This document shows positions 28,906 through 63,979 of a DNA stretch of 64,000 bases, in pieces. Under the pieces are notes generated by a model. It saw only the letters and a program-made list of their open reading frames with translations. It ran no database searches and was not told the DNA's origin. Position 1 is the stretch's first letter, and every line of letters starts with the position of its first letter. The DNA comes from Epilithonimonas zeae (GTDB taxonomy: Bacteria > Bacteroidota > Bacteroidia > Flavobacteriales > Weeksellaceae), in contig NZ_FSRK01000001.1 in the NCBI RefSeq assembly GCF_900141765.1, positions 868,001-932,000 of the forward strand. Reading direction: 5' to 3'. The position numbers and the translations under genes are program-made.

Positions 28906-29000
28906 TTTAGCTTTTCTTTGATTTCTTTTTCTTTCTTTTATTTGATTATCAATCATTTATAAAAAATTTATTTTCTCTTTTTGGAGTTTATTTATATATT

Positions 29001-29062
29001 TGTACACCTGTTGTACACCTCGAACTACAAAAAGTAGTACAAAGGTGTACAAATGTACACCT
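29001..29062. repeat. TGTACACCT repeat cluster before the integrase
   Basis: Direct copies of TGTACACCT lie at 29001-29009, 29012-29020 and 29054-29062, with the inverted AGGTGTACA at 29043-29051 and GTAGTACAAA between. The integrase start is 12 nt after the last copy. They could be arm-type sites for the recombinase or operators. The same sequence core recurs at 48888 and 49020. Confidence 0.6.
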
Positions 29063-29074
29063 CAAATAAAAGAT

Positions 29075-30214
29075 ATGAATATTACTTTAAAACAGAAAAA
29101 TTTAGCTGATGGAAGGATTAGTCTTTTCATTGAGTATTACAAAGGCTCTTCTACTAATGCACAGGGAAGAAGAGTTCACCTGCGGAATTTTGAGTATTTG
29201 AAACTGTATTTGCACCCCGATCCAAAGTCGACTAAGGAAAAAAAAGAGAATAAAGAAACTATGGCTCTTGCCGAAAGTATTTTGGCAATCAAAAAAGCTG
29301 AATATGTCCAAGGTCGTTACGATTTAAAAGATACCGTAAAAAGTAAAAGGACTTTTTTAACATACTTTGAGGAGTTGACTGAAGAAAAGCAAAAGCAAGA
29401 TACTTCTAATAATTACGGTAACTGGTTTTCTACGCTACAACATCTTAATAAGATTGTTCCAAAAAATATGACTTTCGATGAAATTGATGAAAGCTTCGTC
29501 AAGAAAGTTCACCGATATTTCGAAAAAGATGCTCTCACAAAAAGTGAGCTGCCACTTTCTCAGAACTCAAAATATTCATATTTCAACAAGTTTAAAGCTG
29601 CTCTAAGAAGTGCTTTCGATAATGGATATTTGACTATAAATTACGCATCAAAAGTCAAATCCTTTGAACAGGCTGAAAGCCAAAGAGAATATCTAATTTT
29701 TGATGAATTACAACGTTTAGCCAAAGCTGAATGTAAATATCCGGTTTTGAAAAAAGCTTTTCTTTTTTCTTGTTTATCAGGACTACGTTGGTCAGATATT
29801 AATACGTTGACCTGGAAAGAAGTTCGTGATGAAGGTGATGTTTCCAGAGTCAATTTCCGACAAGAAAAAACTGAGGGTGTAGAATATCTTTATATTTCAA
29901 AACAAGCCAGAGAATTGCTGGGCGAAAGACAAGATCCGCAAGAAAGAGTTTTCAAAGGCTTAAAATATGGAATGACCTATAATACTGAAATTATCCGTTG
30001 GTGCAATCGTGCGGCGGTTCCCAAACATATTACTTTTCATTCCGCCCGACATACGAATGCTGTCTTACTTCTGGAAAATGGCGCTGATATTTACACAGTT
30101 TCAAAAAGACTGGGACACCGGGAATTAAGAACAACGCAGATTTACGCAAAAATTGTGGATAGCAAAATGAAAGAAGCTGCTGAGATTATTCCAGAATTAA
30201 ATATCGAGTTGTGA
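29075..30214 (+). CDS. int: ICE tyrosine recombinase (integrase)
   Basis: A 379-residue tyrosine recombinase that integrates and excises the element. The N-terminal Arm-DNA-binding-like region (MNITLKQKNLADGRISLFI) is typical of Bacteroidetes ICE integrases. A SAM-like domain follows, then the catalytic domain with GLRWSDI (Arg), HSARHTNA (H-x-x-R), and GHRELRTTQIYAKI (His and nucleophile Tyr). The frame extends upstream to 29000 through the TGTACACCT repeats; ATG at 29075 is the homology-based start. Confidence 0.9.
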   Translation: MNITLKQKNLADGRISLFIEYYKGSSTNAQGRRVHLRNFEYLKLYLHPDPKSTKEKKENKETMALAESILAIKKAEYVQGRYDLKDTVKSKRTFLTYFEELTEEKQKQDTSNNYGNWFSTLQHLNKIVPKNMTFDEIDESFVKKVHRYFEKDALTKSELPLSQNSKYSYFNKFKAALRSAFDNGYLTINYASKVKSFEQAESQREYLIFDELQRLAKAECKYPVLKKAFLFSCLSGLRWSDINTLTWKEVRDEGDVSRVNFRQEKTEGVEYLYISKQARELLGERQDPQERVFKGLKYGMTYNTEIIRWCNRAAVPKHITFHSARHTNAVLLLENGADIYTVSKRLGHRELRTTQIYAKIVDSKMKEAAEIIPELNIEL

Positions 30215-34561: not shown

Positions 34562-37110
34562 ACGAGTTGCTAAAAATGATTTTGGTTTTTGGTGTCACAC
34601 CTTTGTTAATTGCTTTTGGCTATATATATCTTTTTGGCGAAGTATGGTCAAAAGGTAAAATCGTTTTGGCAGATATTGCTGCCTTCTTCGGATGGATTGG
34701 AAAAGGAGTTAGAAAGTTTAGTGTTGAACAAGAATATCAAGGAACGATAAACAGTATTATCCAAAATTATAATCAAAATTTTGAAAGTCCAATTTTGCCA
34801 AAATGTAAAATTGAGTGGGTAACTGCTGAAAATCAGCAGAATATATTAAAAGAGGGTGAAGCAATTATTTGTTTGAGCTTTAATAAAAAGGACCATAATC
34901 TAAATTTCTATAATGCCACCTTAAACTTTGTTCAAACTGGTTTAATCGCCACTGCAAAGGATTACTTAGACAAACAATCTTCGAAAGCAATTGATTTGCT
35001 TACAACTCATATTATATTAAGAAATAATCGCAAAGAAGTACTGACAACATTTCGCAGAAAACTCAATGAATTTGATGATGAAACAAAGAAGGAATTTGAA
35101 ACGCTTGTACCAACAAATGACAAAGGACTTTTCCTCAATATCCTTTTACCAGAATTTCATTTTTATGGTGAACTTATTGATACTTTACCACCAAGTTCGG
35201 AATTTAATATAGAAGCAAATGGATTATTTAATTGGTTCAAGGAATTAGCAACCAGAGAGTTTGACGAAAGAACCAATCTAAAATACATTTCAAAGAACCT
35301 TAAAGTAGGTGTTATACTCGTTGCGAAAGATGAAACTTGGGAAAGTCAGGGTGCACCAGCATATACAAAATGGGCTGATTATTATGCTACAGAAAATTAC
35401 AATTCTGTATATATTTTGGCTAGAGGTAGCAATGGTTATGAAAGAGCAACAACAGTTACTAAAATTTTAACCCACTCAAAAGGATTTGACCAGATAAACA
35501 AAAATCCTAAAATCAAATGTGTTTCAGCTGAAGGCCAAGAATATATTGTCACCTGTTATTCCTTGAGACCTAACAAAGCAACAATTGAATACTTAGCTTG
35601 GGAAAGTCTCAATGAGCACAGTAAAAACGGAAGATTGGTTCCTGCGATTGTTGATAGTGTTCAAAAAGATACGGTTGTTGTAAACGCGTTTGGACTTAAG
35701 TTTGAACTTGTCAACAATCTACTTTCAGATATTGAAATTCCAGATGCACGGAAAGTATTCAAGATTGAAGATGAGTTATATCTAACTATCATAGAGTTTG
35801 ATAATAATACCCACAATATAATTCTATCAAACAAAGGAACTATATCTGATCCTAAACATTTTATTGAAGCCGTCTTAAATGCGGATAAAGTTTACCTTTG
35901 CAAGGTTGAAAAAATACAAGTTGACAAACAGGGTTTACAAAGAGGACTTAAAGTGTCAACCCCCGAATTAAATCACTGGATTTACATTCCTAGGTATAAA
36001 GCTACGCCAAGCCGATTTCTTGACCTAACTTCTAAATTTCCAATTGGAACAGAATTAGATGTTGTTATTGATAACTATACTTCACATTCATCAAATTTTA
36101 TTGGTCATTTACAAATCCTTTCAAACCCTTGGGAAAACAATACTTTCAAAAAGTTGAAGCCCAATGATATCATTAATGTAACCGTTAAGCAGATTAATGA
36201 GTTTTCGGTTATCTGTGAAATTGAAGAGGGGCTTGAATGTGGATTTCCTAAACAAGAAATTTCGTGGGATTACGCAGAATGCTACACATCCAAATTTAAG
36301 GTTGATGACAAAATTGAAGTACTTATTGTTGCGATTGATGCTAACAAAAAGCGGATAGATGTTTCTATAAAACGACTTTCCAAAACGCCAGAACTTGAGT
36401 ACTTTGACATGAATTCCAAAAAAGTGGTTGATGTGGAAATTACTGAAATAATTCCCGAAAAAGGACTTGTTGTGAAATATCTGGAAGGAAGAAATACTGG
36501 CTTTATTCATTGGTCTGAAATTGGTTATGGTTCAGTGGGACGTTTTGAAAAAATTTACCAAAAAGGGCATAAGATTAAAGCAATGGTGTCAGAATTTGAT
36601 GCTGATAAGAACGGTCTGAAGTTTAGTATTAAAAGACAGTTTGCTCACCAATTCGATGATTGGTCGGAGGCAATAGATGTAGATTCTCCTCTAATGGGAA
36701 AAGTAATTGGTTATTTTGAAAACAGTGCTCAGATTGAATTATATCAAAATGGGAAAACGGTACAGGCATTTATTTTAAGAAAAAATGTTTCGAATTTTGC
36801 CTTTGTTGAAAGAGATGATTTACATAATTATTTACCAATTGACAGCAGTTTTCATTTTTATATTTATGAAATTAATGAGGATAGAAAAACTATTTCCTTG
36901 ACACGAGCAAGATATCTAAAGGATTTTGAACATCCCCAGTATGGAGAAAAAGTTAAAGTTAAATACGTAAAAGAAAATCAAGTCAAAGGTTATTTCTATT
37001 CTGATGAATTGGAAGGTTGGACAAATATTCCCGAAAAAGACATAAAATTTGGTACAACAATCGAAGTTATACCAATTTCACATTCAACAGGGGAATATGA
37101 AATTGTTTGA
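34558..37110 (+). CDS. Membrane-anchored protein with C-terminal S1-like RNA-binding repeats
   Basis: An 850-residue protein. A single transmembrane helix (about residues 5-28) is followed by a large unrecognised region (about 60-520). Then there are two clear S1-like OB domains: about 532-607 (IINVTVKQINEFSVICEIEE to KKRIDVSIKRL) and about 621-694 (VVDVEITEIIPEKGLVVKYL to KNGLKFSIKRQ). A third degenerate one is at about 710-785, ending RKTISLTRARYL. S1 domains bind RNA, so an inner-face membrane protein that captures RNA is suggested. It overlaps the zinc-ribbon gene, and its 3' end faces the dCas12f gene. Confidence 0.65.
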   Translation: MNELLKMILVFGVTPLLIAFGYIYLFGEVWSKGKIVLADIAAFFGWIGKGVRKFSVEQEYQGTINSIIQNYNQNFESPILPKCKIEWVTAENQQNILKEGEAIICLSFNKKDHNLNFYNATLNFVQTGLIATAKDYLDKQSSKAIDLLTTHIILRNNRKEVLTTFRRKLNEFDDETKKEFETLVPTNDKGLFLNILLPEFHFYGELIDTLPPSSEFNIEANGLFNWFKELATREFDERTNLKYISKNLKVGVILVAKDETWESQGAPAYTKWADYYATENYNSVYILARGSNGYERATTVTKILTHSKGFDQINKNPKIKCVSAEGQEYIVTCYSLRPNKATIEYLAWESLNEHSKNGRLVPAIVDSVQKDTVVVNAFGLKFELVNNLLSDIEIPDARKVFKIEDELYLTIIEFDNNTHNIILSNKGTISDPKHFIEAVLNADKVYLCKVEKIQVDKQGLQRGLKVSTPELNHWIYIPRYKATPSRFLDLTSKFPIGTELDVVIDNYTSHSSNFIGHLQILSNPWENNTFKKLKPNDIINVTVKQINEFSVICEIEEGLECGFPKQEISWDYAECYTSKFKVDDKIEVLIVAIDANKKRIDVSIKRLSKTPELEYFDMNSKKVVDVEITEIIPEKGLVVKYLEGRNTGFIHWSEIGYGSVGRFEKIYQKGHKIKAMVSEFDADKNGLKFSIKRQFAHQFDDWSEAIDVDSPLMGKVIGYFENSAQIELYQNGKTVQAFILRKNVSNFAFVERDDLHNYLPIDSSFHFYIYEINEDRKTISLTRARYLKDFEHPQYGEKVKVKYVKENQVKGYFYSDELEGWTNIPEKDIKFGTTIEVIPISHSTGEYEIV

Positions 37111-37119
37111 TGAAGGTAG

Positions 37120-37129
37120 TATCTCACTA
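37120..37129 (+). repeat. 10-bp direct repeat, right of the S1-protein gene
   Basis: TATCTCACTA here and at 39272-39281 bracket the dead-Cas12f/sigma module. On the minus strand it reads TAGTGAGATA. A partial inverted copy (TTAGTGAG) is at 37224-37231. Confidence 0.5.
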
Positions 37130-37278
37130 ACTGTGTAAGTTAAAAAGTTATTCTGGAAAATTTTGAGCCCTTATAGCTTTAGAGAAAAAAGAGCCCACGC
37201 CGTTGTATATACTACGAGAGTATTTAGTGAGTGTATCAAGACCTCACCCTGCGGGTGTACAAGCACCCTCGTTATTTT
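37123..37278 (-). other. Hairpin-rich region directly 3' of the dCas12f-like gene
   Basis: Read on the minus strand, the sequence after the stop codon has GGGTG-cttgta-CACCC-gca-GGGTG (37268 to 37245), which can form alternative hairpins. CTCACTAA pairs with TTAGTGAG over 100 nt, and two GAGCCC copies lie between. TnpB-family genes commonly carry the scaffold RNA or transposon-end hairpins at this place. It may be a remnant of that, a second guide-RNA source, or a terminator. Confidence 0.45.
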
Positions 37279-38373
37279 TTATCCAATAATCAATTCAATT
37301 CCGGCTTTTTCAGCTTTGTATTTTATTTTGTTTTGCAACTCATAATAACTCCAATTACGAAGTACAAACTCCTGTTCTTTTGCAATCCCAATTTTGTCCT
37401 CCTGATTTTTAAGAACGAGTGTGCCTGCCTGCTGGCGGATGCAAAAATCAATAAGTTGCCGACTGTACACGTGAAGCCGATTACTTACATATCTGCTTTC
37501 AAGATTTTCTGTTTTATACAATGCCTTCTGTTTGCGTTTAGCTCCATTTGCTGAACGGGCATAGGCTATGCCATCTTGAATCCTTTTTTGACTTGCCTGA
37601 ATTGCAAGTCTGCGATATAAAAACTCCTCCTTTGATCCTATATTCATTCGGATATTATTGACTTTTACAACTATTGGATGTTCCAAAGATAGGGAAGCTT
37701 CCGCAATGATTTCGGGTTTTAAATGATTCTCTTCCTTTTCAAATTCAAAAACTGCAAGCCAGAATATTTTCCTGTCTTTCAGTTGTATCTGTGAAGTGCA
37801 AAGTTTTATTTCATCTTTTAGCAGGCGTTCCATTATTAGTCGCTTATCAGTATAGTCTTTTCCTAAATATGTTTTAACAGGTATCGCAAACATATTGAAG
37901 CAAAATGCTTTCTTATCAGGATCATACCTTAACTTGCTAATACATTTGATCGGAAGCGGGATTGGAATATCTTTTCTAAAATTCCTTAAAGATTTTAAGC
38001 CTTTCCAATATTCGGCTTTATTTTTAGAAAAAGTAGATTGAATTGTATTGTTGAGGCTTCCAAGAATATCTGTCGGGATTTCCCCTTTGAAGCGGTCAAA
38101 CACCATTCGTGCTGTAGTGCCAGTTTTCGAACGGTTAAACATTCCCGTCTGATCTTTTTTTTCATCAGCTAACTTATATTGTATTTCTTCTGTGAGGTAG
38201 AAGAAATCTTTGATCATTTCCTGAACATACAAATGGGAAACGATTAAGTTTGCCGCTCGGAAGCATCGGTTCTGATATTGGTAGAGTTTTTCCCAAACTT
38301 CTTTTTTTTGATCTGATGGAACATCAATAAGTAACTGAATTTTTCGGGTCAGTGTTATTGTGGATTTTTCCAT
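37279..38373 (-). CDS. Nuclease-dead TnpB/Cas12f-like RNA-guided protein
   Basis: A 364-residue protein from ATG at 38373 (MEKSTITLTRKIQLLID). Its C-terminal half has the TnpB/Cas12f RuvC layout: the first strand (HPIVVKVNN, about 232-240), a Lys/Arg-rich helix with SANGAKRKQKALYKTENLESRY, the second strand (GTLVLKNQED, about 317-326), and the closing SYYELQNKIKYKAEKAGIEL (342-361). The usual catalytic Asp of strand 1 is replaced (KVNN), the usual Glu of strand 2 is Lys (VLKNQ), and the protein stops before the zinc ribbon and third catalytic Asp. It therefore should bind guide RNA and DNA but not cut. It starts 1 nt after the sigma-factor stop (TGATATG). The frame is open further upstream to 38589, but that overlaps the sigma gene and lacks homology. 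Confidence 0.8.
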   Translation of the reverse strand: MEKSTITLTRKIQLLIDVPSDQKKEVWEKLYQYQNRCFRAANLIVSHLYVQEMIKDFFYLTEEIQYKLADEKKDQTGMFNRSKTGTTARMVFDRFKGEIPTDILGSLNNTIQSTFSKNKAEYWKGLKSLRNFRKDIPIPLPIKCISKLRYDPDKKAFCFNMFAIPVKTYLGKDYTDKRLIMERLLKDEIKLCTSQIQLKDRKIFWLAVFEFEKEENHLKPEIIAEASLSLEHPIVVKVNNIRMNIGSKEEFLYRRLAIQASQKRIQDGIAYARSANGAKRKQKALYKTENLESRYVSNRLHVYSRQLIDFCIRQQAGTLVLKNQEDKIGIAKEQEFVLRNWSYYELQNKIKYKAEKAGIELIIG

Positions 38374-38374
38374 A

Positions 38375-39190
38375 TCAAACAGGTATTTCAGAGTTTTTCC
38401 GATTCTGCAAAAATTGATAGGCATAAAGAAACTCCTGATGGACTTCTTTTTCAGAAAGTTTGAGTTCTCTTGCAATGAGTGCAAATGAAGATTTATGTTC
38501 AAATCTTCTGCTGACAATTTCAATTTGTTGACTGCTGAGTTCATCTTGGTGAACCTCATTTGTCTGAGATTTAATAGGTGGCTTGTCATTACAATTTTCC
38601 TTTAGGATTTTTCTTAAATCATCTATTGCTCTACTTACCTCATTGCTTATATCTTTGACACTGCTTCCCATTACTTCTGCAATAGGTTTGTACCGAAAGC
38701 CATATTGAAGACAAAGCTCGATCAAGTGTTTTCTTTTGGGATTAATCACCTTCAAGACCTTATTAACTTCATCAAAATCTTTCTGATCGGATTCCTGACG
38801 AAGAAGATGTTCTTTGTCTTGCATTGGATCGTATCCGACAAGATAATCTTGATAATTTTCAAAACTTTCAAGTGAAGCTGTTAATCTTGCGAATTTATTT
38901 TTCGGAGTATTGAAATACGTTATGCAATCTCTTTTTAGAACAAAACGTAGAAACCCAAGAATATGATTTGGAGTTTCAATGGAGTCACGGTGTAGCCAAA
39001 GCTTAAGAAATGTATCCTGCACAAGGGTTTCCACTACAAAATCATCATCGAGCATTTGTTTTCCAAGCCAGAAAAGGAGTCTTTTGTAGCGTAAATGAAT
39101 ATGTTCTAATGAAGTTGGATTACCTTTTTTCAGCAGTTCATACAGTTGAAAATCAGTAAGCTTTCGGGGCAGTGAGTTTGTTCTTTTCAT
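38375..39190 (-). CDS. ECF-type sigma factor with extra C-terminal helix-turn-helix
   Basis: A 271-residue sigma-70-family protein. Region 2 is at about 30-95 (YKRLLFWLGKQMLDDDFVVE, QDTFLKLWLHRDSI) and region 4 at about 145-197 (KRKHLIELCLQYGFRYKPIA with VKDISNEVSRAIDDLRKIL). An additional region-4-like HTH lies at about 217-263 (SSQQIEIVSRRF, ALIARELKLSEKEVHQEFLYAY). Ordinary ECF factors have about 180-200 residues, so this tail is extra. No anti-sigma gene is next to it. It is 1 nt upstream of the dead Cas12f-like gene, so the two are surely one operon. Confidence 0.8.
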   Translation of the reverse strand: MKRTNSLPRKLTDFQLYELLKKGNPTSLEHIHLRYKRLLFWLGKQMLDDDFVVETLVQDTFLKLWLHRDSIETPNHILGFLRFVLKRDCITYFNTPKNKFARLTASLESFENYQDYLVGYDPMQDKEHLLRQESDQKDFDEVNKVLKVINPKRKHLIELCLQYGFRYKPIAEVMGSSVKDISNEVSRAIDDLRKILKENCNDKPPIKSQTNEVHQDELSSQQIEIVSRRFEHKSSFALIARELKLSEKEVHQEFLYAYQFLQNRKNSEIPV

Positions 39191-39264
39191 AAGCGGTATT
39201 TTTTCAGCTTAATCATTGCTAAAAGAAACTGCTTAGATTACCAAATGAAGTATCTGTACCAATT

Positions 39265-39493
39265 TATGCACTATCTCACTACATCTTGCCTTCAAATAAA
39301 TGGCATGAAACTCAACATATCCGAACTGGGGCACTGGTATACCTTATATGCAGATAAGTGAGCTCACGCCTAGGTCGTGAGCTACTTTACTTATCCTCTC
39401 GCATATTAAAAATTACCAGTTTTCAGTTCGAGATTCTAAGCAATAGCTTCTATATTTCTTTGAAGTATCGCAAAGTTACATTTCAATAACTTA
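39265..39493 (-). ncRNA. Candidate guide RNA upstream of the sigma/dCas12f operon
   Basis: Read on the minus strand: CTTTG/CAAAG hairpin (39475 to 39458); then one long nested structure pairing CGAACTG/CAGTTCG (39430, 39322), ACTGGTA/TACCAGT (39420, 39333), GATAAGT/ACTTATC (39395, 39353) and a perfect 8-bp stem AGCTCACG/CGTGAGCT (39383, 39361) around ACCTAGG. GCATAT strands also face each other, and a TGCC/GGCA hairpin follows. The 3' end GAAGGCAAG resembles the repeat tail of Cas12f guides, and ATGTAGTGAGATAGTGCATA (39284 to 39265) could be the guide. Upstream, a TATATTTG box (39506 to 39499) is in position to start it. Alternatively it is a structured leader of the sigma gene. Confidence 0.65.
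39272..39281 (+). repeat. 10-bp direct repeat, upstream of the sigma gene
   Basis: TATCTCACTA, identical to 37120-37129. It lies inside the predicted guide segment of the candidate RNA. Confidence 0.5.
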
Positions 39494-39498
39494 TTTTA

Positions 39499-39506
39499 CA
39501 AATATA
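39499..39506 (-). promoter_or_regulatory. -7 box for the candidate guide RNA or sigma operon
   Basis: On the minus strand this reads TATATTTG, matching TAnnTTTG. Transcription would begin near 39493, just before the structured region. The -33 TTG is at unusual spacing (11 nt), so control may be unusual. Confidence 0.4.
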
Positions 39507-39522
39507 AATATATTTTACAAAA

Positions 39523-39540
39523 TATGTACTATAGTACATA
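39523..39540. promoter_or_regulatory. 18-bp palindromic operator
   Basis: TATGTACTATAGTACATA is a perfect palindrome 33 nt before the XRE-family gene and between it and the divergent sigma operon. It lies just upstream of the minus-strand -7 box. An XRE dimer site is the obvious reading. Confidence 0.6.
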
Positions 39541-39573
39541 ATATTTTTTAATGTTTTTCATTCACTTTGATTT

Positions 39574-39855
39574 ATGAATGAATCATTAGACGAAATAGAA
39601 AGATATGTTATCAAACGTGTTAAAGAAATACGAGAATCAAAAGGTATTACCCAAGAGGAGCTCTCTCTTTCTATTGGGAAGAATATTGGATTTATTTCAC
39701 AGATAGAAGCACCATCTAAAAAAGCAAAATATAATTTAATTCACCTAAATTTAATTGCAATGGCCTTAGGATGCTCCATAAAAGATTTTCTTCCTGATGA
39801 ACCAATCCGAGATAAGAAATACGATATTAAAGAAATTAAAAATAAGAAATCCTAA
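39574..39855 (+). CDS. XRE-family transcriptional regulator
   Basis: A 93-residue Cro/C1-type helix-turn-helix protein: IRESKGITQEELSLSIGKNIGFISQIEA is the HTH and IAMALGCSIKDFLP the usual fifth-helix region. It is divergent from the sigma/dCas12f operon and faces an 18-bp palindrome, so it may repress both itself and that operon. A perfect terminator hairpin covers its stop codon. Confidence 0.8.
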   Translation: MNESLDEIERYVIKRVKEIRESKGITQEELSLSIGKNIGFISQIEAPSKKAKYNLIHLNLIAMALGCSIKDFLPDEPIRDKKYDIKEIKNKKS

Positions 39856-41709: not shown

Positions 41710-42734
41710 TAGTTTCATTAATAAAAAATGTAAACTATATGTACTTTAGTTTACACGCGGAAGAGGTAATTAATTCAAATTATATTAAAGATAATAATGA
41801 CGGAATATTTGTTTCAAGCTTACAATTTGAAACTGTTGAGCGATTATATATGTTTTTAGAAAACTCTTCATTTGAAGAACAAAAATATATTGTATTAGAC
41901 TTTCGCCACATTAGACATATACAAGCAAATATTATTGCAAAAATAATTGATATAAGAGATTTAGGATATAAATTAGTCTTTAGAAATATTGCATTAGAAG
42001 TACATGAACCATTATCAATTAATGTAATAGTTAATCCGAAGAATTTAGCTAATGAAATGAATGGTTATGATACATTCTATTATTTTACGAGTGATACTGA
42101 AGAAATTTATTCGATTAATTTGGATGAAAAAATGCTATTTAATCAAGAATTTGAAAGAATATTAAAAGAGAAGAATTATATAGTTGAGTACGGTAAAAAA
42201 CATTCATCATCATTCGTTTACTTACATTCATTTATAGATTTAAAGAAGCTTATTAGCCTTGAGAACCCTTTCATCTATTTTGCATTGTATAAGTTAGCTA
42301 TGAAGATTAGATATAAATGGAAAAATGAGATTAATAATAATCCTATTCTAGTTTCTCAAAGTCTAACTAGTACTTTTATTGTTTCTGTTTTATCAAAACT
42401 TCTAAAATTAGATATTTTAGTTTTTGATAAAATCGGTCCTATAACAAAGTTATATAATAAGTTAGAAAAGCACAATTTTGATAAGAGAAAATATATTGTA
42501 GTATCAGACTTGGTCTGCCTCGGTACAGAAGTAAAAATAACAAAAAGTTTAATTGAATTTTCTGGAGGCCATTATTTAGGAAATGTTTCCCTAGTAAAAA
42601 TTGAAACACTAAGTAGAGAGGATTTAAAACTTGAAAATAAGGATAGAACTTTATCAATATTTTCAATTACAGATGAAAATAATAGAGAATTAAATTATTA
42701 TATATACACAAATCTTAACCCGAAACCTATTTAA
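41706..42734 (+). CDS. STAS-like/phosphoribosyltransferase-like protein
   Basis: A 342-residue protein. The N-terminal ~110 residues (YIVLDFRHIRHIQANIIAKI) resemble STAS domains. The C-terminal region around 265-290 (RKYIVVSDLVCLGTEVKITK) has the hydrophobic-D-x-V-x-x-G-T layout of the PRPP loop of phosphoribosyltransferases, though the second acidic residue is not evident, so PRPP binding may be altered. It overlaps the GHKL gene by 4 nt and the phosphoesterase gene by 1 nt (TAATG), so all three are translated together. Confidence 0.55.
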   Translation: MIVSLIKNVNYMYFSLHAEEVINSNYIKDNNDGIFVSSLQFETVERLYMFLENSSFEEQKYIVLDFRHIRHIQANIIAKIIDIRDLGYKLVFRNIALEVHEPLSINVIVNPKNLANEMNGYDTFYYFTSDTEEIYSINLDEKMLFNQEFERILKEKNYIVEYGKKHSSSFVYLHSFIDLKKLISLENPFIYFALYKLAMKIRYKWKNEINNNPILVSQSLTSTFIVSVLSKLLKLDILVFDKIGPITKLYNKLEKHNFDKRKYIVVSDLVCLGTEVKITKSLIEFSGGHYLGNVSLVKIETLSREDLKLENKDRTLSIFSITDENNRELNYYIYTNLNPKPI

Positions 42735-44560
42735 TGAGTAATATAATTTTACATATTTCTGATCTCCATGTTTCACTTGATGAAAAGTTTACTGGTGAAG
42801 TAAAAAATCATGACTCATATTTATCTGCTACAGAAGAAAATGACAGTAGTTTATTATATATCGAGCGTTTCATTGACTTCGTTAAAAGGCAGATTGAAGG
42901 AAAGACAATTTATTTACTAATTACAGGAGACATCACTGATTGGGGAGAACAAACAGAGTTTGAATACGCTGAAATTTATCTCAACAAGATAATTACCGAA
43001 TTAAATATATCGAAAGAAAATATATTACTTATTCCTGGAGACCATGACTTAAACAGAAGAGCCATTGAGAATCGTTTAGCAGAGGATCCTAATAGCCAAT
43101 TAGAATCTATAAATGAGGCTAAGTTTTATAACTTTAAAAATTTTTATAATTCTTTTTTAGGTAAAGAGTTTCATCCTAATTCAGTAGTTTTTGAAAATCT
43201 AATCATCGATGAAAAACTGCAATTAATTGGAATTAATTCATCTTACAAAATAGATTTAAAACAAACAGAAGGTCTAATCTCAATAGAGAAATTTGAAGAG
43301 GAAATCAAGCCTTATTTATTAAATAAAGAATTAAAGAGCGTTATTTGTTGTCATCATAATGTAGTTTCAGTACATGAAAATAAAAAATCAGGTCAATGGA
43401 AGATTGACAATAGAACTAGATTTCTGAACAAACTACAAGAACTTGAAATTAATTTTATATTTTCTGGCAACGAACATACAAGTAGCTTAGAAAAACATAG
43501 CCAAAGTGAAATTTTAATTTCAGATTCCGGACCAATATCTTCCAAAAAAAATGATTCAGCTTTTAAAATTTACGACGTTGAAATAGCCGATAACATTACA
43601 TTAAAAAATAATATTTATGGATTAATTAAAACAGGTGCTTTTGATAACCCTTATCATTGGGAACAAAGAAATAATACTCTTTGTAAACAAGATGATGAAA
43701 TCGAAATTAAAACAACTACAATTCCAAACATTACAGAGGAAGTAACTGAAATTTTATCAGAAGTAAATTCTTCCAATGATGAATTAACCGATGTCTCAAT
43801 TTCAGTACCAGAAGAAAATGAAAAAAACATTTATGAAAATCAATTTTATACAGAAGAGTTGTATAAAAAAGTTAAAGATCTTAATTTATTTCATTCAGGA
43901 CATTTTCATTGGAGCGAGACATCAAGGGCACACAATTGGATTGATATTTCAAAATTAATTGAAAATAAAGAAAATCTTAATTTTCTTAAAAATGCTATAA
44001 TTGATGTTTTAGAGGCAAAAATTCAACCTGAAAGCATTGACTTAATTATAGGTTTAGGTTATGAAGGAAATATCCTTGCAACCAAAACAGCAATTAAATT
44101 TAATAAACCTTATACTTTTTTACCTTATTCTTACAGACATAATGAACATCACTATACAGAAACAGAGCTAAATTTCAATAACGAAGAAAAAAAATTTAAG
44201 GTGGTTCTAATTATTACTGATGTCGTAAATGATGGTAGGACCATAAGAAAGTTAATAAAAAAACGTCAAAATGATTTTTTCTCAAATGTCGATAAAGTAT
44301 ATGTTATATCACTTTTTTATACAGGAGATTCTATATTAAACAACAATATTCTTAATATTGATTTCATGAAAACAAAAACAAACTATGATTTAACAACTGA
44401 CGAAGAAGTTAATAATATAGAATTTTATACTGTAAAAAGTCTCAAAGTAGAAAAATGTCCTTACGGAAAAAATTTCAGAAATGAGTGTTTTATTTATAAA
44501 GACGAACTAAACTGTGTAAATCTATTTTACGACGAAAAAAATACTTTTCTCTCTAAATAA
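42734..44560 (+). CDS. Metallophosphoesterase fused to a phosphoribosyltransferase-like domain
   Basis: A 608-residue fusion. Residues 1-280 are a calcineurin-like phosphoesterase: ISDLHVS (Asp10, His12), LLITGDITDWG (Asp66), IPGDHDL (instead of the usual GNHD/E), ICCHHNVVS, and FSGNEHTSS (instead of GHxH). Residues about 380-608 look like a phosphoribosyltransferase with the PRPP loop VLIITDVVNDGRT (about 491-504). Phosphoesterases act on nucleotides, nucleic acids or phosphoproteins; the fusion suggests a nucleotide-signalling or nucleotide-destroying output. The last gene of the operon. Confidence 0.65.
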   Translation: MSNIILHISDLHVSLDEKFTGEVKNHDSYLSATEENDSSLLYIERFIDFVKRQIEGKTIYLLITGDITDWGEQTEFEYAEIYLNKIITELNISKENILLIPGDHDLNRRAIENRLAEDPNSQLESINEAKFYNFKNFYNSFLGKEFHPNSVVFENLIIDEKLQLIGINSSYKIDLKQTEGLISIEKFEEEIKPYLLNKELKSVICCHHNVVSVHENKKSGQWKIDNRTRFLNKLQELEINFIFSGNEHTSSLEKHSQSEILISDSGPISSKKNDSAFKIYDVEIADNITLKNNIYGLIKTGAFDNPYHWEQRNNTLCKQDDEIEIKTTTIPNITEEVTEILSEVNSSNDELTDVSISVPEENEKNIYENQFYTEELYKKVKDLNLFHSGHFHWSETSRAHNWIDISKLIENKENLNFLKNAIIDVLEAKIQPESIDLIIGLGYEGNILATKTAIKFNKPYTFLPYSYRHNEHHYTETELNFNNEEKKFKVVLIITDVVNDGRTIRKLIKKRQNDFFSNVDKVYVISLFYTGDSILNNNILNIDFMKTKTNYDLTTDEEVNNIEFYTVKSLKVEKCPYGKNFRNECFIYKDELNCVNLFYDEKNTFLSK

Positions 44561-50781: not shown

Positions 50782-51146
50782 TGGAAAAAAAAGATTCGGC
50801 TAAAGAAGATTTTATTGTTATCAGAATTCAAAAAAGTAGAAAAGACGAATGGAAGCGTAAATGTTTGGAAAAGAAGATTTCTCTAAGCAGTTTAATTGTT
50901 AATTCAGTTGAAAATAGATTGCAGGACAACGAGAGGCGTGAAATTCTTGAATTTATAGAAAAGCAAGATAATATTTTTATCAAAATTGAAACGAATATTA
51001 ATCAAGTAGCCAAGATAGCTAATAATCAAAAATTTATTAGGGCAAATGAGTTACAGAGATTTTCAGAGTTACTCGTAGAAGTGGTTTCTCTAAAGCAGAA
51101 ACAGAACAAAATACTTGAAAGGATCTATTCGCTACTTTCTAAATGA
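50781..51146 (+). CDS. Mobilisation accessory protein (MobC-like)
   Basis: A 121-residue protein with the ribbon-helix-helix-like start (FIVIRIQKSRKDEWKRKCLE KKISLSSLIVNSVENRL) typical of MobC-family relaxosome proteins, then a coiled helix. It overlaps the relaxase gene by 4 nt. It probably binds oriT and loads the relaxase. ATG at 50781 is preferred over the TTG 3 nt before. Confidence 0.75.
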   Translation: MEKKDSAKEDFIVIRIQKSRKDEWKRKCLEKKISLSSLIVNSVENRLQDNERREILEFIEKQDNIFIKIETNINQVAKIANNQKFIRANELQRFSELLVEVVSLKQKQNKILERIYSLLSK

Positions 51147-52600
51147 TTGTCAAAATAATGAGACCGGCAGGTTTCGATTTTCCGGGAGTCAAGTACAACG
51201 ATAAAAAAATAGACAAGGGAAAGGGTGAGCTAATGATGATGAAAAACTTTCCTTCCTTTATCAATGAAAGCAGTGGTAAAGAACAAGTAAGAGACTACTT
51301 AAAAGCTATTTCAATCGGAAATAAGAAAGTTCTGAAGCCACAGTTTCACGCAACGATCTCAACAAATTTCAGGGAACATTCCAAAGAAGAACTTGCCAAG
51401 ATTGCTGAAGATTTTATGGATGAGATGGGATATGGGAAACAACCATTTGTTACGGTTTTCCACAATGATACCGAGAATAATCACATCCATATTGTTACGA
51501 CCCGTGTAGATAAGCATACGGGAAAGAAGATCAATGACAGCTATGAAAAATTGAAGGCTCAAAAAGCTTTGTCTGTTACTCTGGAAAAACTTTACGGTAT
51601 AAAATCAGAGGAAGTATTGAACAAGTTGCTGAACTACAAAATTAGCTCTCTCCCTCAGTTTGAAACTTTACTTAACAGAAATGGCTACAAATTGGGCAAA
51701 AACACAAATGATGAAAAATTTTTAACCATTTTGAAAAACGGCGTAATTCAGCGAACATTATCAGGAGACCAGCTTGTTTATGATAACAGAAAGAATGAAA
51801 GAAGAACAAAACAACTGAAAGCCATTTTTTCCAAGTATAAAGATATTTACTCCAACAAAGTTTTCAAAGTCGAGGATTTTAGAAAACAGGAAGCGATGCT
51901 TCCAAAAGAAAAACAAAAAGCTGATTGGACGCCGAAAATTGAATTTGAAAGTGAATTTCAGAAAAAGCTAAGAGATGTTTTTGGGGTTGACATCGTTTTC
52001 CACCATAAAGATGATTTTCAACCTTTTGGCTATACTGTGATTGATCATAAAACGGGTGCTGTTTTCAAAGGAAGTGAAGTGATAAAAATGAATGAGTTGT
52101 TTGAGTTCACTTCGGAGAAAATGGACAAGAGACTATTTGAAAGTCTTAAGGATTATAATATTCCAAATGATGAAACTAAAGCAGTACTGCAAAGGTTTTT
52201 GAAAGATGCAAATCCAAAAAATGAAATACAAGACTTTATGCTTTTTGGGAATAAAAAGCTGAATAATAAGGAAACATTCAAAGCTATCAGAAGCGACGTA
52301 AAAGAATACCTCAAAAGCCAAAATAAAGAAGATGTCAACATTGTAAAATCAGAAGATGGAAAACATTACGTCATTCATTCGAGACTTCATTACATCGGGG
52401 AACTGCAATCTATGATTGGACAAAAGCAATATCAGGAATTCCTAAACCCTCAATTAGAAACTACTAAAGAAAATAAAGAAGGGAATGAATTGAAAAAAGC
52501 CATCAATGAGATGTTTTTTAAACTGATGAAAAGCTCAGGCAATTCCAAAGACCCGGCAGAAAATGAATTGAAGAAGAGGAGGAAAAAGAAAGGTCGATAA
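51143..52600 (+). CDS. MOBP-type relaxase
   Basis: A 485-residue conjugative relaxase that nicks oriT and leads the DNA into the recipient. The N-terminal domain (about 1-170) has the HUH metal site in FHNDTENNHIHIVTTRV; the catalytic Tyr is expected in the N-terminal 30 residues or shortly after (candidates are not decided here). The C-terminal ~300 residues are lineage-specific, ending in basic KKRRKKKGR. It follows the MobC-like gene with a 4-nt overlap. Confidence 0.85.
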   Translation: MIVKIMRPAGFDFPGVKYNDKKIDKGKGELMMMKNFPSFINESSGKEQVRDYLKAISIGNKKVLKPQFHATISTNFREHSKEELAKIAEDFMDEMGYGKQPFVTVFHNDTENNHIHIVTTRVDKHTGKKINDSYEKLKAQKALSVTLEKLYGIKSEEVLNKLLNYKISSLPQFETLLNRNGYKLGKNTNDEKFLTILKNGVIQRTLSGDQLVYDNRKNERRTKQLKAIFSKYKDIYSNKVFKVEDFRKQEAMLPKEKQKADWTPKIEFESEFQKKLRDVFGVDIVFHHKDDFQPFGYTVIDHKTGAVFKGSEVIKMNELFEFTSEKMDKRLFESLKDYNIPNDETKAVLQRFLKDANPKNEIQDFMLFGNKKLNNKETFKAIRSDVKEYLKSQNKEDVNIVKSEDGKHYVIHSRLHYIGELQSMIGQKQYQEFLNPQLETTKENKEGNELKKAINEMFFKLMKSSGNSKDPAENELKKRRKKKGR

Positions 52601-54310: not shown

Positions 54311-54625
54311 ATGGGGTTCTATCTCTACAAGGGGCTTAAGAAACCCCTTGTATTCTTCGGACTCAAAGGCAAATACATCTTTTACGCAGTAGGCGTCATT
54401 GGAGTCGGTGTCATCGCAGCACTTATATTATCCAAATTCGGATTGCTGGGTTCTCTTTTAGGACTCGCAGTTACAGGAGGAGGGGTCTATTTTATATTCA
54501 AAAGACAGGATAAATACGGTTTGTATGCTAAGACCAAAAACTTCGATCAGGTTTTGATTTTTCCAAAAAAAATAAACAATAAAACACTTTTAGGTTATGT
54601 CCAAAATAAAGAAACAAGCATTTGA
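54311..54625 (+). CDS. traF: Conjugal transfer protein TraF (DUF4133)
   Basis: A 104-residue inner-membrane protein with two hydrophobic helices (YIFYAVGVIGVGVIAALIL and LGLAVTGGGVYFIF), the VirB3-like DUF4133 component. ATG at 54311 is chosen over the TTG at 54302. It overlaps traG by 29 nt. Confidence 0.85.
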   Translation: MGFYLYKGLKKPLVFFGLKGKYIFYAVGVIGVGVIAALILSKFGLLGSLLGLAVTGGGVYFIFKRQDKYGLYAKTKNFDQVLIFPKKINNKTLLGYVQNKETSI

Positions 54626-57600
54626 CATTCCTTTTATCGGTTTTGATATGGGAAAAGATTTCGGGTGGGACTTTGATGTTCTGTTTGGGCAGTACGGAAA
54701 TCCAATCATCGGAATCAAAATAAAAAATCCTGTTGAGCAGTATTCGGCTGATCCTGACAATTACCTGAATTTCCATACGGTTTTAAATCAGACAGTATCT
54801 ATTATAGGAGAGGGCAGAATCGTTCAGAAACTAGATTTCTTTTCCAAGAAAAAATACACTGCTGAAGAGTCAAGCCAATTTCTACAGCAGAAATACTCAG
54901 AACATTTTGAAGGGCGACTTTTTAAAACCATTGAGACTGTACTTCTCTTCACGGATATTGTGGATGATAAGCTGAAAAAGAAAATGAAGCACTACCATTT
55001 CTCTGACAAGAGCTATAAAGAGCTTCGTGATAAATGCCAAAAGGTATTTATGCTTTTAAAACAAAATGACTGTGAACCACAATTTTTATTTGAAAAGGAT
55101 TTTGAACATTACATTTCCGGTGTATTGTCGATGCATTTTTCAGATGTTCCCGCTTTTGATAATATTAAATCAACCAATGAATATCTGCAGATAGGAAATA
55201 AATTCGTCAAAAATATTTCTTACGTAGATGTTGAAAACATTGATCTTCCTTCTGAAATAGAGCCTTATTCCATACTTGGAGGAAATGGTGCAGCGTCAGA
55301 AACGGCTGTTGATAATTTTACATTCATCAATGAATTGGAGGATTATGAAACCATCATTTATAATCAGGTGATTACGATTCCCCTTCAGGCACAGCAACAA
55401 AGAGAACTCGACAAAAAAAAGAAAAAGCACGAAGGTGCAGCCAATAATTCTCCATCCAATGCCATTATAGCGGAAGAAATTCAAACACTTCTGCATAACA
55501 TCGCTATCGATGGGCAATTGGTTGTCAACGCTCATTTTTCGCTGTTATTTTCAACCGACACTCTGGAAAAAATGGAAGGAACTCAGTCTCTGATGGAAAA
55601 CAAACTATTCACGAAAGGCATAATCGTTTCCAAGAATGCTTATAATCAACTGGAACTCTTCCGGTCTGCCATTCCCGGCAATGCCACGGAACTCAGGGAA
55701 TACGATCTATTTATGACGACAAGCGAAGCGGCCTTGTGTTTTTTTTTTAAAGAGAGTTACCCCGTGAACGAAGAATCTAATTTCTATCTGAGGTTTACGG
55801 ACAGGCAAGGTGTTCCATTGAAAGTGGATCCTGCTGATCTGCCTATGAAAATAGGACGGATCAATAACCGAAATAAGTTTGTACTCGGACCCAGTGGATC
55901 AGGTAAGAGTTTTCTAATGAATAATATCATTGAGCAATATCTTACCTACAACTATGATGTTGTTATCGTCGATACCGGTGATTCCTATTCAGGAACCTGT
56001 AAGTACAAAGGTGGTAGATATATTCAATACACTGAAGAAAAGCCAATCACAATGAATCCTTTCCTGATGGATAAGAAAGAGTTCAATATCGAAAAGATCG
56101 AGTTTTTGACCAATTTGATCTTCCTTATCTGGCAAGGCCCTGATGCTTCGATGTCATCTGCCCAGAAATCAATATTGGATAATGTGCTAATGTCCTATTA
56201 TCATCAATATTTCAATTCGGGAACTGAATGGTATGAGAATAAAACTTCAGAAGAATTAATTCTTTATTTGAATAAATATAACGTTCACGAAGAAGATATT
56301 TATGCTCAGTATGAGAATGAAGTTAATGAACAGCGGACTTATTACGATGTTTTAGGAATTACTTTCAATGCAAGTTCTGAAGAGATCAAGGAAGCCGGAA
56401 GGAAACTATTGAAGTTCTATCATCCTGATAAGAACATTAATAATCCTGATTATGACAATGAAAAATTCTATACAGTTTATGAAGCTTATGAAACGTTGGG
56501 TGATGAAGAGAGAAGAAGGATTTATAATGAAACTCAATTGATTCTTATCAAATCCAATGAAATCATTAAACAGGATAAAACAGAAGAAAACTGGAACGAA
56601 TCGTTTAGAAAAACTATCATCAGAAAAATCAAAGAACTGGAAGAAAGGCTTGATGCAAAAGAACTCTCATTTAATGGTTTCTATGATTACTGTGACAAAT
56701 TTCTTCCTCTTTATCTGAATAATAAGAAACACAGGATCACAGAAAGAGAATTCAACCTGCGAACTTTTCTATTTGTTCTAAGGGATTTTTATAAAGGTGG
56801 ACGATATGGAACAACACTCAACGAATCTGCTGATAACACTTTGTTTGATGAATCATTTATCGTGTTTGAGATTGACAACGTAAAGGATAATCCCAAACTT
56901 TTTCCCATTGTGACACTCATCATTATGGACACATTCATTCAGAAAATGCGACTCAGAAAAGACCGAAGGAAAGCTCTGATTATCGAAGAAGCGTGGAAAG
57001 CAATCGCAAGTAAACTGATGGGTGGATATATTTTGTATCTCTACAAAACGGTTAGGAAATTTTGGGGAGAAGCAGTGGTGGTAACACAGGAGCTGGACGA
57101 CATCATTGGAAATGCAGTTGTTAAAGACTCCATTATCAATAATTCGGATACTTTCATTCTTCTTGACCAGACCAAATTCAAGGACAATTTCGATAGGATA
57201 GCCGCATTACTTTCATTGAATAAAGTCGAGCAGAACAAAATATTCACGATCAACAACCTCAATAACAAATCCGGAAGAAGCAGGTTCAAGGAGTTTTATC
57301 TTAAGCGAGGTTCTAAAGGAGAAGTCTATGGTAATGAAGTTTCAATAGAACAGTACTTAACCTATACGACAGAGAAACCTGAAAAATCGGCAGTAGAGTA
57401 TTATGTGCAGAAGTACGGAAGCTATGATGAAGCACTTATGAAAATTGTCTCTGATTTAAAAGTTTTTGGAGACAGCCTTGAAAATCTTGTTTCGCTGGTC
57501 AACCTGTATCAAAATCCTTTAGACCAAAAGATTGTGTCCTATTACCGCAGGATGAAAAATGAGAACAAAGGGAAAAATGTTTTCAAGGTCATTTCACAGA

Positions 57601-57668
57601 AACTTGAAGATCATCAAATCAGTTTTTCAGAATTAATCACTAAAAATTATCAGTATGAAAAAGTTTAG
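54597..57668 (+). CDS. traG: TraG, VirB4-like conjugation ATPase with inserted J-domain
   Basis: A 1023-residue ATPase that powers the type IV secretion apparatus, long compared with the usual ~800-850. The N-terminal VirB4 domain (1-400) is followed by Walker A GPSGSGKSF (about 431-438) and Walker B ALIIEEAWKA (about 793-802). Between them, residues about 578-645, is a J-domain (TYYDVLGITFNASSEEIKEA, HPD at 609-611, EAYETLGDEERRRIYNE). That is an intact Hsp70-recruiting domain inside the ATPase. Overlaps traF and the next gene by 14 nt. Confidence 0.85.
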   Translation: MSKIKKQAFDIPFIGFDMGKDFGWDFDVLFGQYGNPIIGIKIKNPVEQYSADPDNYLNFHTVLNQTVSIIGEGRIVQKLDFFSKKKYTAEESSQFLQQKYSEHFEGRLFKTIETVLLFTDIVDDKLKKKMKHYHFSDKSYKELRDKCQKVFMLLKQNDCEPQFLFEKDFEHYISGVLSMHFSDVPAFDNIKSTNEYLQIGNKFVKNISYVDVENIDLPSEIEPYSILGGNGAASETAVDNFTFINELEDYETIIYNQVITIPLQAQQQRELDKKKKKHEGAANNSPSNAIIAEEIQTLLHNIAIDGQLVVNAHFSLLFSTDTLEKMEGTQSLMENKLFTKGIIVSKNAYNQLELFRSAIPGNATELREYDLFMTTSEAALCFFFKESYPVNEESNFYLRFTDRQGVPLKVDPADLPMKIGRINNRNKFVLGPSGSGKSFLMNNIIEQYLTYNYDVVIVDTGDSYSGTCKYKGGRYIQYTEEKPITMNPFLMDKKEFNIEKIEFLTNLIFLIWQGPDASMSSAQKSILDNVLMSYYHQYFNSGTEWYENKTSEELILYLNKYNVHEEDIYAQYENEVNEQRTYYDVLGITFNASSEEIKEAGRKLLKFYHPDKNINNPDYDNEKFYTVYEAYETLGDEERRRIYNETQLILIKSNEIIKQDKTEENWNESFRKTIIRKIKELEERLDAKELSFNGFYDYCDKFLPLYLNNKKHRITEREFNLRTFLFVLRDFYKGGRYGTTLNESADNTLFDESFIVFEIDNVKDNPKLFPIVTLIIMDTFIQKMRLRKDRRKALIIEEAWKAIASKLMGGYILYLYKTVRKFWGEAVVVTQELDDIIGNAVVKDSIINNSDTFILLDQTKFKDNFDRIAALLSLNKVEQNKIFTINNLNNKSGRSRFKEFYLKRGSKGEVYGNEVSIEQYLTYTTEKPEKSAVEYYVQKYGSYDEALMKIVSDLKVFGDSLENLVSLVNLYQNPLDQKIVSYYRRMKNENKGKNVFKVISQKLEDHQISFSELITKNYQYEKV

Positions 57669-62424: not shown

Positions 62425-62778
62425 ATGAATGCTTTTGTTAAAAAAAACGGACAGAAATGGTTAGGCTGGGCAGTGAGAAATCCTAAGAAGTTTTTTATGT
62501 ATTCGATGGCTTTCTTATCCGTTTCCTTCATCATATCCATTGTACAAGGTGTATTTTTTCCTTCAGATATGACATTCAAAATAAAGCCCCCTGTTATTTA
62601 TTCCAAGAGTTCAGTCATTCAAAATACTTTACCAAATAATGAAAAGGAAATGGAGAAAATAGTAGCTGAGCTCCAATCCCTGAAAGTAAAAAGAGATAGG
62701 CAAGACTTAAAAAAAGAAGACAGCTTGAGAATAGAATATCTGTTTAACCAATACCAACACTTAAAAAATGGACATTAA
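62425..62778 (+). CDS. traL: TraL-like conjugation protein
   Basis: A 117-residue protein with one membrane helix (FFMYSMAFLSVSFIISIVQ) and a coiled tail. It is in the TraL position, between TraK and TraM. The frame is open from 62317, but ATG at 62425, 1 nt after the traK stop, is the proper start. It overlaps traM by 11 nt. Confidence 0.65.
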   Translation: MNAFVKKNGQKWLGWAVRNPKKFFMYSMAFLSVSFIISIVQGVFFPSDMTFKIKPPVIYSKSSVIQNTLPNNEKEMEKIVAELQSLKVKRDRQDLKKEDSLRIEYLFNQYQHLKNGH

Positions 62779-63979
62779 GAAAATCAACTTTAAAGAAAAA
62801 AAATACGTTCTGCCTCTTCTTGCTCTGCCGTTCATTTTACTGTTTGCGTATGTAGGAGCTCAGTTTACAAAGGATGATAAGCCTATGGAAAAACCAAAGG
62901 AGCTTTCCACATTACTGGGTGAATCTCAGGATTCCATTATGACTAAAAATGATGCTTATGATGCATTCTTCAAAAAAGATGATAATAGAACAATGCTTGG
63001 AGGATTAGACAGGGAACAGGACAGTTTTCTAAGCTATGACGACCAGTTGTCATTAGCTCAAAAAAGAAGAATCGATTCAATAAAAGCTGTCAATTCAAGG
63101 CAGAGTCAATATCAGGCAAACGGAAATCCATCATCCTATTATAACCCTAAACAAGGTAAAGAAGATCAGGACTATAAAAGATCGACTGAGATTATTAAAA
63201 TGTTGAATGACAAATCCAACGGAAAAGCAGAAGATAATATTCAGACTGAAAAGCCTAAAACTAAAGAGCAAAATACACAGCAAGATCCTGTAAAATATCT
63301 GAAACAGCAAATGCTGGTGATGGATTCTTTAGAGAAAGCAAGAGATCCCGAGTATCAAAGCAAGTTGGCGGCAGAACAGAAGCTAAAAGCCAATAAAGAA
63401 AAAATGAACGAGTTCCTTAATTCTACTTTCAATGTCAGTAAGTCAGGTATCAATCATGACTTCAATGCCATTTATAAAGACAAGGAAAATAGTTTTATCA
63501 AGGCTGTTATCGATGAAAACAACAAAGGGTTTTTGGGAAGCAGAATAAGATTTCGATTGCTGGAGGACATCTATGTTGGAAACAGGAATATCAGTAAAGG
63601 TTCCATTCTGTATGGTCAAATCTCAGGATTTACAATGCAGAGAGTTGATTTGAAAATCATTTCTGTATTTGCTAAAGGAGAGATTTTTCCCATCAACCTA
63701 TCTATTTACGATGTTGATGGTATGAAAGGCTTGTATGTGCCGCAAAGCGGTTTCAGAGATATGATTCGAGAAATGGGAAGTAATTCAGTTCAGGGAACCC
63801 AAATGGATATGGGTGGAGAAGGATTTTTTACAACGATTGGTTCCAAACTATTTACATCCACTTCCAAGTCGATCGCAAACCTCATTAAAATCAATAAAGC
63901 CAAGTTGAAGTACAATTCTTATGTATTTCTGATTGACGAAAAACAATTGAAAGATTCAAAAAACCAAACAAAACCTTAA
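62768..63979 (+). CDS. traM: Conjugal transfer protein TraM (VirB10-like)
   Basis: A 403-residue protein with one N-terminal membrane helix (YVLPLLALPFILLFAYVG), a long charged linker, and a C-terminal beta domain (SRIRFRLLEDIYVGNRNISK) that links the inner and outer membranes. It matches TraM of conjugative transposons. It overlaps the TraL-like gene by 11 nt. Confidence 0.85.
   Translation: MDIKKINFKEKKYVLPLLALPFILLFAYVGAQFTKDDKPMEKPKELSTLLGESQDSIMTKNDAYDAFFKKDDNRTMLGGLDREQDSFLSYDDQLSLAQKRRIDSIKAVNSRQSQYQANGNPSSYYNPKQGKEDQDYKRSTEIIKMLNDKSNGKAEDNIQTEKPKTKEQNTQQDPVKYLKQQMLVMDSLEKARDPEYQSKLAAEQKLKANKEKMNEFLNSTFNVSKSGINHDFNAIYKDKENSFIKAVIDENNKGFLGSRIRFRLLEDIYVGNRNISKGSILYGQISGFTMQRVDLKIISVFAKGEIFPINLSIYDVDGMKGLYVPQSGFRDMIREMGSNSVQGTQMDMGGEGFFTTIGSKLFTSTSKSIANLIKINKAKLKYNSYVFLIDEKQLKDSKNQTKP

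Follow-up and report, generated by a model that had tools for sequence, protein, structure and literature searches.

Which genes a sigma factor-linked, nuclease-dead Cas12f (dCas12f) controls in its natural host is the question raised by a locus of Epilithonimonas zeae. Natural dCas12f-sigma pairs are newly reported to drive RNA-guided transcription: dCas12f is said to bind a guide RNA and to recruit sigma and RNA polymerase independently of promoter motifs, with start sites reportedly set by the distance from the bound site. A pair of this kind was analyzed in a stretch of 64,000 nucleotides (NZ_FSRK01000001.1, positions 868,001 to 932,000; hereafter the window), and the question of what such pairs naturally control was addressed through its predicted guide and the sites that this guide matches. 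The reading favored below is that an RNA-guided sigma factor, borne on an integrative conjugative element (ICE), probably activates two SusC-SusD operons through a guide match in their leaders.

A sigma factor and a predicted nuclease-dead Cas12f in one operon

Features of the locus are collected in Table 1. The sigma stop codon and the dCas12f start codon form the junction TGA-T-ATG, leaving 1 nt between the two minus-strand genes, as the first-pass annotation had described. In phmmer searches, the Cas12f homologue matched entry 9n9c, "Nuclease-deactivated Cas12f," along its entire length (E = 2.6e-161), followed by the Cas12f nucleases 9nzr and 9nzo, AsCas12f1 (7wju) and others; Pfam gave nothing for it at E ≤ 0.01, so that it may escape automatic annotation. 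Residues 17-262 of the sigma factor matched 9n9q_C, "RpoE" (E = 4.6e-82), and Pfam placed region 2 at residues 34-93 and region 4 at residues 146-189. A second region-4-like match was seen at residues 216-252, and region 4 thus appears to be duplicated in this sigma factor.

The catalytic acids of AsCas12f1 were taken to be D225, E324 and D401, position 225 presumably being Asp in the wild type; in entry 7wju it is Ala. By alignment to this position, the RuvC Asp is replaced in the window protein by Ser227 (in EASLSLEHP) and, by alignment to the nuclease 9nzr, the Glu of RuvC motif II is replaced by Lys322 (in VLKNQ). The protein ends at residue 364; its residue 362 aligns with position 361 of AsCas12f1, which precedes the third Asp. 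The first-pass annotation had thus been right about motif II and about the end of the protein before the third catalytic Asp, whereas the motif I residues it had named (KVNN) are not at the catalytic position. With Asp and Glu replaced and the third Asp beyond its C-terminal end, the window Cas12f is predicted to be nuclease-dead, and it lacks the intact RuvC nuclease of Type V-F CRISPR-Cas. These alignments confirm the gene pair with a Cas12f lacking RuvC acids, and the full-length match to 9n9c with the RpoE match to 9n9q_C supports the proposed membership of the operon in the dCas12f-sigmaE type.

Table 1. Positions of the operon, its RNA and DNA elements and the surrounding mobile-element genes (window coordinates unless given as C1)
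Feature	Position	Strand	Basis or remark
Tyrosine integrase	29000..30214	+	At presumed ICE end, adjoining mnmE (27520-28905)
Predicted guide GGCGTGGGCTCTTTTTTCTC	37182..37201	-	Scaffold conservation stops directly 5′ of guide
Guide-RNA scaffold, three predicted hairpins	37202..37270	-	Conserved across loci; begins 8 nt 3′ of dCas12f stop
Cas12f homologue, predicted nuclease-dead, 364 aa	37279..38373	-	ATG at 38373, stop at 37279; match to 9n9c
ECF sigma factor, 271 aa	38375..39190	-	Match to 9n9q_C RpoE; PF04542, PF08281, PF04545
Conserved structured leader (model R1) 5′ of sigma-dCas12f operon	39290..39437	-	Three strong copies in own genome
Own-operon site GGCGTGAGCTCACTTATCTG	39351..39370	-	15/20 to guide, weaker than the two SusC-leader sites
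Promoter-like TTTG-N20-TAACTTTG	39471..39502	-	Upstream of leader; similar in relatives shown
Perfect palindrome TATGTACTATAGTACATA	39523..39540	.	Sequence; between divergent HTH gene and leader promoter
Divergent Cro/C1-type HTH gene	39574..39855	+	HTH_3 match (Pfam)
Relaxase	51143..52600	+	ICE context
TraG-type conjugation ATPase	54597..57668	+	ICE context
Conjugative transposon TraM	62768..63979	+	ICE context
SusC-operon leader copies	C1:1509775-1509923 and C1:2064158-2064304		Own genome

Relatives of the pair

A scan of GTDB genomes returned 83 relatives of dCas12f, and the best 80 of these 83 were kept, representing 78 distinct loci. A sigma homologue was located upstream of dCas12f, on the same strand and within about 0.5 kb, in 77/78; the exception, L077, is a locus cut at a contig end. 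Because of this linkage, the pairing of sigma and dCas12f is not a chance arrangement. In the family to which the window belongs, dCas12f was found in 43 of 197 genomes (E ≤ 1e-60). Relatives in plasmids (4 records) and phages (2 records) were all distant and TnpB-like, with identities below 60% and coverage of less than 80% of the dCas12f query. The stretch directly 5′ of the sigma start codon is conserved in relatives (e.g., L014 and L029), contains an inverted repeat AAGCAGT...ACTGCTT in several of them, and its 3′ part is retained also in L010, L026 and L027, which are without the leader described below; this stretch may hide a start site.

Mobile-element setting

The tyrosine integrase, relaxase, TraG and TraM genes lie on one stretch with the operon, VapE-like and Toprim replication genes are also present on the element around it, and the far end of the element is beyond the window. 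The operon is accordingly predicted to be carried on an ICE, in agreement with what had been proposed. At least one homologue of the integrase, VapE or Toprim was found in the fetched flank of up to 10 kb in 34 of the 78 relatives, and the same flanks contained homologues of the relaxase, ParA, TraG or TraM in 0/78. Gene content shows carriage on an ICE in the window but does not establish it among the relatives.

The TraG-type ATPase contains a DnaJ domain match at residues 581-644; we know of no earlier instance of this domain in such an ATPase. The gene at 44790-45935 (+) gave a weak, below-cut-off match to the CAP12/Pycsar TIR effector domain and lies near a gene for a protein with phosphoesterase and phosphoribosyltransferase domains (42734-44560); the former is possibly defense cargo.

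A probable guide RNA encoded behind dCas12f

A scaffold following the pattern GAGGGTGCTTGTACACCC...GGTGAGG...CTCACTAAATACT...AGTATATACAAC starts 7-15 nt past the dCas12f stop codon in all 79 loci (78 relatives and the window). When 24 picked loci were aligned, the scaffold was kept up to ACAAC, with variable sequence beyond. With up to 3 mismatches allowed, its own genome contains one copy of it. A search for CRISPR-like repeat arrays gave none between 34000 and 42000 of the window, where direct repeats of at least 20 nt were two-copy and widely spaced, so that the CRISPR array of Type V-F CRISPR-Cas is absent there. The RNA encoded behind dCas12f is likely its guide RNA (gRNA). The structured leader upstream of the operon was initially taken for the gRNA, since it folds far better than shuffled sequences; this candidate was rejected on the downstream scaffold in 79/79 loci and on the occurrence of the leader in genomes without dCas12f.

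The guide could be read by pattern in 77/79 loci (all but L005 and L072). Among the Weeksellaceae-type loci with a readable guide, the first guide begins with GGCGTGGG in 59/61, and in the two exceptions, L039 and L050, this start was found in a further tandem gRNA, one such gRNA being kept beside one divergent gRNA in L039 and two in L050. The tandem gRNA genes are at 11110 and 11500 in L039, at 11110, 11278 and 11444 in L050 and at 11111-11386 in L063, and multiple gRNA genes (two or three), directly behind dCas12f or farther on, were also seen in L057, L059, L066 and L071; several carry different guides, a natural multi-guide arrangement.

Guide matches in the leaders of two SusC-SusD operons

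When up to 3 mismatches to the 20-nt guide were allowed, the host genome (4,079,566 bases) contained three sites in all: the gRNA gene itself, C1:1509837-1509856 and C1:2064220-2064239. The guide pattern read backwards gave 0 sites under the same conditions. Both chromosomal sites read GGCGTGGGCTCTCTT(G/A)TCTG and are identical to the guide at 17/20 positions; nucleotides 12-17 of the guide are a T run, and mismatches fall at 13 and 16. Against the three leader regions, a single one of 500 shuffled guides reached 16/20 and none 17/20. The two sites lie 434 and 451 nt ahead of the start of a TonB-dependent SusC gene, within a structured leader, and in both cases SusC is followed by SusD and then by an S9 peptidase (Pfam).

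In 40/42 leaders, as at the two SusC sites, GCGTGGG is preceded by a G. The base adjacent to the spacer at the SusC sites is G if the spacer starts at the second base and A if it starts at the first; spacer start permitting, the sites are in line with the minimal 5′-G adjacent motif that targets of dCas12f-sigma systems are said to carry. A fourth, diverged leader match was detected with the covariance model at C1:2042353-2042514 (+) (L235; 46 bits, E = 2e-6) before a 165-aa ORF. Its site is identical to the guide at 15/20 positions, with GGCGTGGGCT exact, and it may be a third chromosomal target.

When each fetched locus (up to 21 kb) was compared with its own guide, mostly nothing was found beyond the sigma leader. 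The SusC-leader sites of the window guide lie far away and came solely from the whole genome. For Allomuricauda (Flagellimonas) taeanensis JCM 17757, the guide matched its own genome at 25 sites at up to 2 mismatches; two of these besides the gRNA itself were read (L112 and L113), and neither is within a leader.

Distribution of the leader and its fit to guides

The leader is present in the host genome in three strong copies (blastn, E ≤ 2.3e-53; next match, 0.05), one before the sigma-dCas12f operon and two before the SusC operons. Upstream of the operon copy, TTTG-N20-TAACTTTG resembles the -33/-7 promoter pattern of Bacteroidota, and the palindrome TATGTACTATAGTACATA is operator-like by its sequence. 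An HTH gene is also divergent from both own SusC leaders (Pfam).

Under stricter filters, which lose weak matches, the leader was counted in 126/197 genomes of the family, including 40/43 with and 86/154 without dCas12f; by this distribution, the leader does not depend on dCas12f. The core of the leader is conserved also where dCas12f was not found, so this conservation is no proof of targeting. Forty copies outside sigma operons were read (L179-L218). Of these, 31/40 had a same-strand SusC gene no more than about 4 kb away, comprising 16/20 copies in dCas12f genomes and 15/20 in others, and seven of the nine copies without SusC are followed by genes for proteins of 174-201 aa that look alike by eye. 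A divergent ORF begins 183-249 nt upstream of the anchor in 37/40; these ORFs are often HTH-like by eye, and Pfam confirmed the HTH at the leader of the window and at those of the two own SusC operons.

The window guide matched those 40 leaders at 14-17 of 20 positions. Other genomes' own guides matched their own leaders at 12-16 of 20 (8 for the first guide of L050), in a comparison that lacks guides for 4 of the 20 dCas12f-genome leaders. In the region of the own sigma leader, the core site was the best guide match in 25 of the 52 loci with readable guide and leader, and in 17 of the other 27 the best match was the antisense arm of the same leader hairpin; the case for self-targeting is therefore weak. 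Guides of Sinomicrobium, Snuella and Flavivirga (L062, L064 and L065) matched their own leader at 16, 15 and 17 of 20, respectively, with matches extending past the stem and a G 5′ of the site. The leader core was not matched by the guides of F. taeanensis (L056), Echinicola (L057, L059 and L071) and L055, nor by the first guides of L061, L063 and L066. Since several guides miss the core, pairing of guide and leader characterizes Weeksellaceae and some others and not the whole dCas12f family. The F. taeanensis genome has the leader both 5′ of its sigma operon and 5′ of a SusC gene.

Two competing helices in the leader

RNAalifold analysis of 30 copies gave 33 pairs, 16 with double changes. The target strand GGCGTGGGCTC can pair with the upstream GCTCACG (helix A) or with the downstream GAG-T-CCCACGCC (helix B). 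Helix A is 100% paired in 43 copies yet nearly invariant, and its pairing is therefore uninformative. Over the same 43 copies, 99.2% of helix B cells are paired, and 8 cells, belonging to three pairs, show double changes; in 500 shuffles, in which relatedness is lost, 0 reached 8 cells and 7 reached three pairs, while slid controls were at most 61% paired. On the 30-copy set, helix B is 98.2% paired, with 4 double-change cells in two pairs. In 43/43 copies, helix B is followed by a T-rich tail, with 5 or more T among 9 nt. Forced folding into A or B gave -44.4 and -41.5 kcal/mol for susC1, -43.0 and -38.5 kcal/mol for susC2, and -47.0 and -33.3 kcal/mol for the window, in whose own leader copy helix B is far less stable. 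The two helices share a strand and are mutually exclusive, and B is terminator-like; because A and B exclude each other, the leader looks like an attenuator. At gathering score, Rfam matched nothing in the window, and in sensitive mode over 37100-39600 it gave one sub-threshold miRNA-family match inside the sigma gene, which was taken as chance.

Proposed activation from inside the leader and its alternatives

If the ICE-borne pair activates the two SusC-SusD operons, as we think probable, dCas12f would load the gRNA encoded downstream of it and bind DNA at the two SusC leaders, where the guide site is the strand shared by the competing helices. Sigma would come with dCas12f and bring RNA polymerase, and transcription would start downstream of the site. 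A start distance of some tens of bases would place the start in the interval that separates the target strand from the 3′ arm of helix B (57 nt in susC1). Because such a start falls 3′ of the target strand, the new transcript would contain no helix B: it would lack the 5′ arm of this terminator-like helix, and the operon would be read through. The outcome at the SusCD operons would then be activation from inside the leader. The weaker match in the leader of the own operon could give feedback.

The strongest rival is an RNA-guided repressor, in which the complex would act as a roadblock downstream of the leader's TTTG/TAnnTTTG promoter, with sigma a mere binding partner. The promoter-like motif is about 100 nt upstream of the sites, which fall inside the transcribed, structured leader, where a bound complex could block polymerase, and the TldR proteins (PMC13418256) provide a precedent. 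Against this stand a dedicated sigma factor linked in 77/78 loci and the solved entry 9n9q, which contains both dCas12f and RpoE; we consider repression unlikely. The guide could also owe its resemblance to the leader merely to descent, its 3′ end having been derived from a leader copy, with the working target elsewhere or the system idle. The leader is indeed more widespread than dCas12f, and some guides have no match to it. Descent by itself accounts poorly for a guide core kept in 59/61 loci, for the arrays of L039 and L050, in which one core gRNA persists beside one and two divergent ones, and for the position of both other genome matches in SusC leaders, and this reading is given little weight.

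An action of the gRNA on RNA appears more improbable still. Here the guide would prevent termination by pairing with GAG-T-CCCACGCC, the 3′ arm of terminator-like helix B, and GGCGTGGG and CTC in the guide are complementary to this arm in copies such as susC1. In L062, L064 and L065, however, sense-strand identity continues past the stem (into CTTATT), where the RNA arm could not pair, and Cas12f relatives bind DNA. Activation of the two SusC-SusD operons by DNA-bound dCas12f and sigma remains the preferred reading. A further-reaching version, that the ICE carries a one-guide master switch that reads a near-invariant leader core and bypasses an attenuator by starting inside the leader, is put forward tentatively, as a possibility more doubtful than activation itself.

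Comparison with known systems

The N-terminus of 9n9c was found in locus L056, the F. taeanensis locus, whose dCas12f-sigmaE system (9n9c/9n9q) is the closest comparison. The window dCas12f is 66% identical to the L056 protein, and the two loci share a linked RpoE homologue of the type in 9n9q, the gRNA scaffold downstream of dCas12f (at the sequence level) and the leader before the sigma gene. They differ in the guide, which begins TTGTGGGATATACGC... there and GGCGTGGG... in the window, in the match of the window guide to the SusC-leader core, and in the location of the window operon on a predicted ICE. The Cas12f nucleases (9nzr, 9nzo and AsCas12f1 7wju) are homologous over roughly residues 84-362, whereas the window protein has Ser227 and Lys322, no C-terminal part and no CRISPR array seen beside it. 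TldRs are TnpB-derived nuclease-dead repressors (PMC13418256); the window system resembles them in its inactivated RuvC, as a mobile-element-borne RNA-guided regulator and in that its predicted targets, too, are host surface genes, and differs in that its protein is Cas12f-like, sigma-linked and expected to activate.

Among the titles and beginnings of abstracts covered, which represent part of the literature, no account was found of this leader or of a regulon linking a guide to SusC leaders; native targets of the type may already be described in the primary F. taeanensis report, which lies outside the literature covered. The dCas12f-sigma system type is already known, and the guide, its two chromosomal matches and the shared leader appear to be new.

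The leader is a second lead in its own right: it has two competing helices and no Rfam match, stands before SusC in most copies read and contains the guide's match. The sequence by itself yields a predicted guide, two candidate chromosomal targets, the genes they would control and a possible feedback site, so that the proposal is testable in one strain. Many Weeksellaceae and some other Flavobacteriia place this leader before SusCD operons and, if the proposal is true, the ICE could plug into the SusCD regulon in almost any new Weeksellaceae host.
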